Below are positions 46,925 to 49,338 of a stretch of DNA of 56,776 nucleotides, piece by piece. The notes under the pieces are model-generated. The model did not search any database, was not told the DNA's origin, and saw only the letters and a list, made by a program, of their open reading frames with translations. The translations under genes were made by a program, and so were the position numbers. Location: contig CALGRI010000243.1 of assembly GCA_937880875.1 (NCBI GenBank), positions 1-56,776 on the forward strand. Reading direction: 5' to 3'. The stretch comes from an uncultured Pseudomonadota bacterium (lineage in GTDB: Bacteria > Desulfobacterota > Desulfobacteria > Desulfobacterales > Desulfobacteraceae). Numbering within the stretch: position 1 is the first letter of the stretch; each line of letters starts with the position of its first letter.

Positions 46925-46979
46925 TAATATAGCCGGGAAAATATAAAAAATGAAAGAGTAAAATAACTGCACACACCCT

Positions 46980-47018
46980 ACAACAGAATTCCAGTGATTT
47001 GACTTAAGATTCTGTTGT
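46980..47018 (+). other. Perfect 10-bp inverted repeat after the defence operon
   Basis: ACAACAGAAT (46980-46989) and ATTCTGTTGT (47009-47018) flank a 19-base loop, about 55 bases after the stop of the OLD-like gene. There is no T-run, so it is a weak terminator candidate or the end of a mobile segment. Confidence 0.4.
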
Positions 47019-47143
47019 TAAAATGAAAGCCTTTGTTTTTCATAGATGGGTAATGATCCTTAATTAAAGCAAAACGATGGTAAAGGAAACGCTCACCCCA
47101 GAAACTCGGAAATCATCCATCCTGACACTCAAGAATAATTATC

Positions 47144-47263
47144 CTATTCTTGAGTTCCGGAAAGCGTTTTATTGTCAATAATACCACCATCTAAAAAAAC
47201 TTTACATGATTTGGTCCGATCACAAGATGTTGTGGTTGTGAATCCACACGTTTGATTCAACAT
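47144..47263 (-). pseudogene. Small Cys-containing ORF, probable gene remnant
   Basis: A 39-residue minus-strand frame begins MLNQTCGFTTTTSCDRTKSC and ends KVFLDGGIIDNKTLSGTQE with TAG. Its composition is protein-like, with three cysteines in the first half, but there is no good ribosome-binding site and no family is recognised. An 11-bp inverted repeat (47127-47137 with 47145-47155) spans the stop. I read it as the C-terminal end of a lost gene. Confidence 0.3.
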
Positions 47264-47300
47264 AATTAGAGATTAAAAATCATCCAGCCGAAACTCTTTT

Positions 47301-47417
47301 TTATGGGTCAGACAATGCCATTGATAGTGGTGAAAATGTGTCGATATTGCCAATATTGGCATTTCCGACAATTTCAGATACGCGATTTTGATGCAACCCC
47401 ACCTTTTCTGTAATTTT
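47301..47417 (-). pseudogene. Remnant of a helix-turn-helix DNA-binding protein
   Basis: The minus strand between an in-frame TGA and TAA encodes KITEKVGLHQNRVSEIVGNA followed by NIGNIDTFSPLSMALSDP. The pattern ITEKVGLxQxRVSxIVxNxNxGxID matches the helix-turn-helix of ParB-like and DNA-methylase-associated proteins (IAEKVGVSQxxVSxIV). There is no start codon in the frame other than an internal ATG, and no upstream domain, so it is a degraded fragment. Confidence 0.5.
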
Positions 47418-47525
47418 TCATAGACTTATTGTCGGACGGGTGGATGAAAATTCATAAGACCCTATATCACTACTGCCCCCAGATATTCTCTGGTTTGCGT
47501 CTAAATCAGTTACATAGAAATACAT
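47418..47525 (-). pseudogene. Remnant of a choice-of-anchor-Q-type surface protein C-terminus
   Basis: In the same frame as the helix-turn-helix remnant, but separated by TGA, the minus strand reads TDLDANQRISGGSSDIGSYE (about 47451-47510). The TDLDGNPRI...VDMGAYE pattern is typical of the end of right-handed beta-helix surface proteins. Only this tail remains, so this is a second gene scrap in the same stretch. Confidence 0.45.
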
Positions 47526-47554
47526 TGCACCTGACAGCTGTGGTGTGATACCGA

Positions 47555-47570
47555 TATGCTTATAAGCATA
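47555..47570. promoter_or_regulatory. Perfect 16-bp palindrome upstream of the MFS gene
   Basis: TATGCTTATAAGCATA is a perfect palindrome about 65 bases before the predicted MFS start and is followed by GGTTTTTT. It could be a regulator site or a weak attenuator with a six-base stem and a four-base loop. Confidence 0.4.
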
Positions 47571-47624
47571 GGTTTTTTACAAAACCCTGGAGGCGAGATA
47601 AGGCCATTTTATCTGATATAAAAT

Positions 47625-47630
47625 AAGGAG
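47625..47630 (+). promoter_or_regulatory. Ribosome-binding site pointing to an AUA start
   Basis: AAGGAG lies six bases before ATA 47637-47639 and 45 bases before the first in-frame ATG (47676). An in-frame TAA lies at 47619-47621. The site therefore supports initiation at the ATA codon. Confidence 0.65.
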
Positions 47631-47636
47631 ACACAC

Positions 47637-48878
47637 ATAGAAAAGAAAATACATTATGGATGGATTGTAATTTTCATGGGTCTGGTTACAACTGTTGCTG
47701 CTCATGGTTTTGGACGAATGGCCTATACTATTTTACTGCCGGCCATGAAGGACGGGCTTAATTTTGATTACACTCAGCTGGGACTTTTAGGGACGGCAAA
47801 TTTTATCGGTTATCTATCAATGGCGATCATCGGCGGCTTTCTGGCAGCCCGATTTGGCACAAGAATGATAATTTCCCTGGCTCTGGTTCTCATGGGGATC
47901 ACCATGATACTCACCGGCCTTGCTGAATCATTCGGGTTTGCCTTTGCCATGCGGTTATTGACAGGCCTTGGCAATGGTGCAGCCTATGTGCCTGCCATGG
48001 CTCTTGGTTCGGCATGGTTTGCCGTTAAAAAACGCGGTTTTGCCACGGGAATTGTTTCCGGGGGCATTGGACTGGGGACATTTTTATCAGGGATACTTGT
48101 ACCCTTTCTTCTGACATCATATGGAGCTGATGGCTGGCGTTATTCATGGTATATTCTTGGAACTATTGTTATTGTAATCGCCATAATTGTATTTTTATTT
48201 TTACGGAACCAGCCCGAGGATAAAGGACTGCTTCCCGTGGGACAGGAAGAAAAGGAGGAAATCCAAACTTCTTCATTAAAAAATAAGGTCTCCTCTCTGG
48301 ATTGGAAAAAAGTATACAGGATGAAGGGCATGTGGTACCTGGGAATTGTTTATTTTTTTTATGGTCTGTCCTACATTATCTATATGGTTTTTTTTGCAGC
48401 ATACCTGGTGAAAGAGATGGGCTGCACAGAGGCATGGGCAGGTGGGTTATGGGCCATGGTCGGTGGATTAAGCATTTTTTGCGGTGTGATCTGGGGAAGC
48501 ATATCAGACCGAATCGGCCGTGGTAACGGTGCTGCCCTGGCATATCTTGTCCTTGGCGTTTCATACATCGTCTATGCGTTAGTCAAGTCTGAAGCTGGTT
48601 TTTATTTGTCTGCCATTCTTTTCGGTTTAACGGCATGGAGCATCCCAACCATTATGGCTGCTGCTGCCGGCGATTTTGTCGGTCCAAGACTTGCTCCTGC
48701 AGGACTGGGTTTTATAACGCTTTTCTTTGGAATCGGTCAATCCATAGGCCCGGTCCTGGGAGGATATCTTGCAGATGTGAGCAACTCTTTTACAATTCCA
48801 TTCCTTATTGCCGGAGGAATTTCTTTTGTGGGGATGATTTTTTCATTTTATTTAAAAAAACCCATTGAACATTTATAA
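47637..48878 (+). CDS. MFS transporter (OFA-like monocarboxylate/oxalate group), apparent AUA start
   Basis: A 413-residue transporter with twelve hydrophobic segments. Segment 1 begins EKKIHYGWIVIFMGLVTTVA, where the x-YGW-x opening is usual for OFA-type carriers, and the A-motif GGFLAARFGTRMI appears between helices 2 and 3, with GSISDRIGRGNG at the corresponding loop of the second half. Starting at ATG 47676 would remove KIHYGWIVIF and half of helix 1. No ATG, GTG or TTG exists between the upstream TAA and 47676, but an AAGGAG site is placed for ATA 47637. The likely substrate is a small carboxylate; a thioesterase gene follows by 31 bases. Confidence 0.82.
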   Translation: MEKKIHYGWIVIFMGLVTTVAAHGFGRMAYTILLPAMKDGLNFDYTQLGLLGTANFIGYLSMAIIGGFLAARFGTRMIISLALVLMGITMILTGLAESFGFAFAMRLLTGLGNGAAYVPAMALGSAWFAVKKRGFATGIVSGGIGLGTFLSGILVPFLLTSYGADGWRYSWYILGTIVIVIAIIVFLFLRNQPEDKGLLPVGQEEKEEIQTSSLKNKVSSLDWKKVYRMKGMWYLGIVYFFYGLSYIIYMVFFAAYLVKEMGCTEAWAGGLWAMVGGLSIFCGVIWGSISDRIGRGNGAALAYLVLGVSYIVYALVKSEAGFYLSAILFGLTAWSIPTIMAAAAGDFVGPRLAPAGLGFITLFFGIGQSIGPVLGGYLADVSNSFTIPFLIAGGISFVGMIFSFYLKKPIEHL

Positions 48879-48909: not shown

Positions 48910-49338
48910 ATGGAGGATAAAAACCGTGAACAGGCGATTCTGGATCACATTCAAAAAGATGCCTTTGCCAATTATCTTGGGGCAAAAGTGGAAATCATTA
49001 AGCCGGGTCAAAGCCGTGTATCCCTTGTGGTTAAAGAGCATATGACCAATTTTCATGGTACAACCCATGGCGGTATTATCTTTGCCATCAGTGATATGGC
49101 ATTTGCTGCTGCCTGCAATTCCCATGGAAAAGTTGCCGTTGCCCTGAATGTGAGTATCTGTTTTTTAAAACCATCCTATCCCGGAGATCATCTGGTTGCC
49201 GAGGCAAAAGAAGAACATAACGGCAGGAGAACATCATTGTATACGATTAAAATTTATAATAAGGAAAAAGGCGAGCTTATTGCAAAAAGCCAGGATCAGG
49301 CATATAGAAAAAATGAATGGTTTGTACCCAGAGAATAA
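48910..49338 (+). CDS. PaaI-like hotdog-fold thioesterase
   Basis: A 142-residue hotdog protein with the PaaI motif NFHGTTHGGIIFAISDMAFAAA near residue 45, where His-Gly-Gly and the downstream Asp/Glu position form the active site. Relatives hydrolyse aryl- or acyl-CoA thioesters, such as phenylacetyl-CoA derivatives and 4-hydroxybenzoyl-CoA, to recover CoA from blocked intermediates. GGAGG precedes the ATG by about seven bases. It is 31 bases after the MFS gene, and together they could release and export an excess acid. The link to the phenol cluster 25 kb away is a guess. Confidence 0.85.
   Translation: MEDKNREQAILDHIQKDAFANYLGAKVEIIKPGQSRVSLVVKEHMTNFHGTTHGGIIFAISDMAFAAACNSHGKVAVALNVSICFLKPSYPGDHLVAEAKEEHNGRRTSLYTIKIYNKEKGELIAKSQDQAYRKNEWFVPRE

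Follow-up and report, generated by a model that had tools for sequence, protein, structure and literature searches.

Introduction

AUA does serve as a start codon, but such starts are rare and weak, and gene callers seldom annotate them. In Staphylococcus aureus, infC, ccpN and, in strains of the NCTC 8325 lineage, citZ are reported to start with AUA (PMC13009471). Reporters of ccpN, citZ and the AUU-started cvfC1 gave about 10% of AUG output in poor medium, and the ccpN reporter reached up to 30% in rich medium (PMC13009471). The same report describes E. coli IF3 as autoregulating its synthesis through the non-AUG start of infC. Single ATG-to-ATA changes have been described in Listeria rsbW, where acid-resistant isolates contained less, though still detectable, product (PMC13068326), and in E. 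coli rpoS, where RpoS fell up to 5-fold (PMC12864459). The latter report also cites Hecht 2017 for an ATA efficiency of up to 1% of ATG. Another near-cognate start, the GTC of Streptomyces sigR, is reported to be repressed by IF3 (PMC5472188). In the list of switches from 61,358 ancestral AUG starts in PMC5622118, AUG-to-AUA is absent, which weighs against the reading favored below. Judged by title, none of the papers found that mention both Desulfobacula and a start codon dealt with this subject.

Here we analyze the start of an MFS transporter gene in a 56,776-nucleotide stretch of DNA (hereafter the window). The window corresponds to contig C243; the draft genome, 3.63 Mb in 528 contigs, is estimated to be 96% complete and 5% contaminated. 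The closest named records with this gene are a Proteobacteria bacterium MAG (L106, 95% identity), Candidatus Desulfobacula maris (L073, 94%) and Desulfobacula sp. MAGs, which suggests that the genome lies close to the sulfate-reducing genus Desulfobacula.

An intact transporter gene with ATA at its start position

The gene occupies positions 47637..48878 of the + strand (413 codons plus TAA). Its product belongs to the MFS superfamily according to Pfam MFS_1 (PF07690; 199.4 bits against a cut-off of 33.4). From ATA at 47637..47639 (+ strand) the reading frame is open as far as TAA at 48876-48878, with no internal stop. Upstream, an in-frame TAA (47619-47621) precedes the Shine-Dalgarno (SD) sequence AAGGAG (47625..47630, + strand), which is separated from ATA by the six-base spacer ACACAC (47631-47636). 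The in-frame codons from 47622 read AAT AAG GAG ACA CAC ATA GAA AAG AAA ATA CAT TAT GGA TGG ATT GTA ATT TTC ATG, and this codon-by-codon listing holds no ATG, GTG or TTG between TAA 47619 and ATG 47676. The preliminary description of this locus, which proposed an AUA start, had placed the TAA, the AAGGAG and the ATA at exactly these positions with six-base spacing, and the codon list bears out its statement that no canonical start codon occurs before ATG 47676.

This ATG (47676..47678, + strand), the first canonical in-frame start codon, encodes residue 14 and is an internal methionine in most aligned relatives. It had been said to lack a ribosome-binding site and to cut helix 1, and both statements agree with our results. 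No SD precedes it, and in the predicted model (mean pLDDT 85.1; 69 for residues 1-10 and 90 for residues 11-20) helix 1 comprises residues 7-28. Because ATG 47676 lies inside this predicted helix, and the upstream residues H6, Y7 and W9 do not vary among the 28 sequences selected for alignment, we rejected it as the natural start. No canonical start fits the conserved N-terminus, and a properly spaced SD stands before AUA. Together with the orthologues described below, this settles the start position of the gene at 47637. Gene callers restricted to ATG, GTG and TTG would begin the protein at residue 14 and lose 7 of the 22 residues of helix 1 (about a third), so genes of this type would be annotated too short.

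Among the 31 NCBIfam families matched, all 25 listed scored under their cut-offs. The protein shares the fold of the L-lactate transporter SfMCT (PDB 6g9x), its best sequence match among solved structures (E 2.4e-21), but is not a member of the SfMCT family (NF049980; 126.7 bits against a curated cut-off of 320). Structure comparison of the model gave sialin, G6PT and the bacterial transporter 6g9x as top matches; a carboxylate would be our guess for the substrate.

dN/dS was 0.060-0.092 in seven pairs of the window with a relative and 0.068-0.117 in the 21 pairs among those relatives. Unique amino-acid differences in the window and in L002 numbered 9 vs 9 with L004 as outgroup and 8 vs 9 with L008, while the comparison with L003 gave 6 vs 16 and 5 vs 13 (outgroups L004 and L008) and 10 vs 11 (outgroup L002). 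The window thus had no excess of unique amino-acid changes relative to L003, nor relative to L002 with L004 or L008 as outgroup; with L003 as outgroup it had more unique differences than L002 (10 vs 6 amino acids, 54 vs 28 bases). The gene is intact and under purifying selection, and signs of decay are absent. These data argue against an inactivation long ago but would not reveal a very recent one, and the signal of purifying selection may be older than the ATG-to-ATA change.

The start codon in relatives

A protein search of 58 genomes yielded 18 loci besides the window, with 79-95% identity. The codon aligned with ATA is ATG in 16 of the 18 orthologues and TTG in L011; L019 has ATG one codon upstream. 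The comparison with orthologues that the preliminary description had called for thus finds ATG at exactly the codon of ATA in 16/18. Since 17 of 18 orthologues (16 ATG, 1 TTG) likewise start at the aligned codon with an SD-like stretch before it, the site in the window is more than a chance arrangement. L003 has the same letters from AAGGAG through the spacer: both loci carry AAGGAGACACAC, followed by ATG in L003 and by ATA in the window.

A second scan covered a genome collection of 84,980 species and retained 79 loci, partly from the same genomes and partly from more distant ones. As L107 and L108 stop short of the start, 77 were usable, with ATG at the aligned codon in 30, TTG in 2, ATA in none and other codons in 45; most of the listed loci with other codons start at least one codon upstream or differ in the first residues. 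A search of all 26 genus genomes for the start plus EKK.HYGW matched 17 places in 16 genomes, with A at the place in the window and G at the other 16. The remaining 10 genomes gave no match to this pattern, and one of them (G004) has ATG by orthologue comparison. Among the 16 genus genomes with a match, ATA is thus limited to the window's own genome. It does not belong to a regulatory class of AUA starts kept in relatives, as at infC: 17 of the 18 orthologues have ATG or TTG, and one has ATG one codon upstream. We also considered a second, ATG-started copy elsewhere in this draft genome (G000) and rejected it, as the next best match there is 41% identical.

The preliminary description had left a choice of three readings: a rare AUA start giving low output, a recent mutation of ATG to ATA, and an error in base calling. 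The orthologues with ATG at the same codon back the recent mutation, and a rare AUA start is compatible with it; the two are not rivals, because such a change leaves an AUA start. We moderately favor a recent, lineage-specific ATG-to-ATA change, after which a working transporter would be made at a low level by initiation that IF3 disfavors. As the best explanation, we infer that the base is real, that the change ran from ATG to ATA, that AUA is used and that output is low.

The natural start codon at 47637 would have become ATA by a G-to-A change at 47639, while the ribosome-binding site, the spacer and the whole reading frame would have stayed intact. AAGGAG would then direct ribosomes to AUA, with which the initiator fMet-tRNA would pair imperfectly, and the full-length transporter would be produced at a reduced rate. 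IF3 normally discriminates against codons such as AUA; output is therefore expected to be low and to increase under IF3 limitation.

The MFS ATA adds to a known kind of start-codon change. Listeria rsbW (PMC13068326) and E. coli rpoS (PMC12864459) are reported with the same single G-to-A at the start codon and with expression that is lower but not zero; these are regulators in isolates with known parents, whereas the MFS gene encodes a transporter in a draft genome. S. aureus citZ (PMC13009471) is likewise a lineage-specific AUA start of an ordinary metabolic gene. Its start is reported from ribosome profiling and reporters, while AUA initiation at the MFS gene is deduced from the genomes compared here. 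If real, the change would be a natural case in which one base of the start codon tunes expression, in a lineage where infC already has ATA.

ATA at the start position of infC

A search of 30 genomes located infC in 29, the sole miss being the window's own draft genome. In the relatives' genomes (L110-L137), AGGAGG is followed by ATA at the infC start position in all 17 congeneric loci. The order's other 12 loci comprise ten with ATA, one with ATC (L117) and one that is cut off (L138); L112 and L137 were read from a second listing. In some loci an in-frame ATG, GTG or TTG also lies farther upstream (at -96 in L123, L127 and L128 and at -33 in L131 and L137, among others), and L120 and L135 have GTG 6 bases before ATA. 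We discounted these codons because the AGGAGG-ATA unit is the conserved part.

AUA initiation therefore appears native to the lineage, judging by the infC loci, and IF3 may autoregulate through infC in the genus by analogy with E. coli. Like infC, the MFS gene has ATA after a good SD (AGGAGG at infC, AAGGAG at the MFS gene). The infC ATA is kept across the order and the non-AUG start is reported as autoregulatory in E. coli (PMC13009471), whereas the MFS ATA occurs in one genome only and is not of the conserved class. That AUA was selected and not merely tolerated, so that the transporter, whose substrate might be a carboxylate, came under the IF3-sensitive brake proposed for infC, is improbable. 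Under such selection, transporter output would track the state of the translation machinery, as the AUA-started ccpN of S. aureus responds to growth medium.

Candidate near-cognate starts elsewhere in the genome

We screened 261 coding-like ORFs in 410,480 bases of the genome, window included, for an SD-like stretch followed by a near-cognate codon that lies 3 or more codons ahead of the first canonical start (an earlier run had covered 239 kb and 148 ORFs). Eight rows fitted this description. Among the seven besides the MFS gene, six show an SD before the canonical start, score negatively as coding sequence, or do both, and the seventh (L180), though similar at first sight, has GGGGGGAAGAG before its ATG. 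By these criteria, applied within this genome for the other seven, the MFS gene is the only one of the eight that needs a near-cognate codon. The count excluded nine open frames that lack a canonical start; all score below the coding cut-off of 0.15 per codon (-0.19 to 0.05). Given the eight-row screen and these nine low-scoring frames, widespread start-codon damage is not apparent, and an excess of near-cognate starts from poor sequence was rejected. By a looser measure, 85 of the 261 ORFs have no canonical start behind an SD-like stretch in their first 80 codons; SD absence is common in this genome and alone proves little.

Alternative explanations

The main rival is an error in assembly or base calling, or a consensus that took up a minority allele, in which case the organism would really carry ATG at 47637. 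We regard this as possible, if distinctly less probable than a real change. In favor of an error, the draft genome consists of 528 contigs and its contamination is estimated at 5%, the change is absent from the other genus genomes among the 16 with a pattern match, and the rest of the site looks like that of a normal ATG gene. A random consensus error is nevertheless unlikely to strike the start codon and leave the gene otherwise clean, with no internal stop, and real ATG-to-ATA changes are documented (PMC13068326, PMC13009471, PMC12864459).

Next comes a real start loss, in which the ATA allele would give essentially no protein and the gene would be beginning to decay. How much protein such an allele would yield can be gauged from reported efficiencies: the figure of up to 1% of ATG (Hecht 2017, cited in PMC12864459) would fit a null allele, but AUA reporters kept about 10% (PMC13009471) and the rpoS allele still gave a fifth or more of its product (PMC12864459), and relatives use ATA at infC. 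The SD carries no compensating change, a point for start loss and against the favored reading. Its predicted anti-SD pairing (-8.2 kcal/mol, computed with an assumed anti-SD tail, not one read from the window's genome) is the weakest of 29 rows, the other 28 ranging from -8.3 to -13.7; a compensating stronger SD was rejected on this ground. L007, with too little upstream DNA, was left out of this table, and L019 was read one codon late. Relaxed selection is not seen, though a very recent change would escape such data, and overall we consider start loss unlikely.

A 21-codon upstream ORF (47556-47621) precedes the gene in frame and ends 15 bases ahead of ATA. Among four relatives, L031 has a 14-codon ATG ORF with TAA at its SD (the L031 start being placed one codon late in this listing), L106 has none of at least 12 codons, and the ORFs of L035 and L073 either terminate at a greater distance from the gene or run across its start in a different frame; the upstream ORFs of window and relatives do not resemble one another. 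Coupling from the upstream ORF might help AUA. Translation from ATG 47676, or coupling or read-through from this ORF, is very improbable as an explanation in its own right: ATG 47676 is the first canonical start but has no SD and cuts helix 1, and although termination beside an SD can feed re-initiation and L031 makes a short preceding ORF not unique to the window, the ORFs of L031, L035 and L073 are unlike the window's in sequence or place, L106 has none of that length, and re-initiation would still require AUA.

Genomic neighborhood

Directly downstream of the MFS gene lies a PaaI-like hotdog-fold thioesterase (48910..49338, + strand; TIGR00369, 82.9 bits against a cut-off of 36.6), whose TIGR02286 score of 116.7 falls just short of the cut-off of 118.9. 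Among the 16 loci of L002-L019 holding more than 500 bases downstream, a thioesterase follows at 17-46 bases on the same strand in 13 and is absent in L006, L018 and L019. The MFS gene and the thioesterase are thus likely to form part of the same operon.

On the other side, approximately 630 bases (46925-47555) separate the transporter from an AAA-type ATPase-like gene and contain no + strand ORF of 60 codons. A promoter scan performed near chance (4 found vs 3.3 expected). A perfect palindrome, ATGCTTATAAGCAT, lies at 47556-47569, about 70 bases before the start, and represents a possible operator or hairpin. In L106 its place is taken by ATGACT-TAT-AGTCAT, so the two arms may have changed together.
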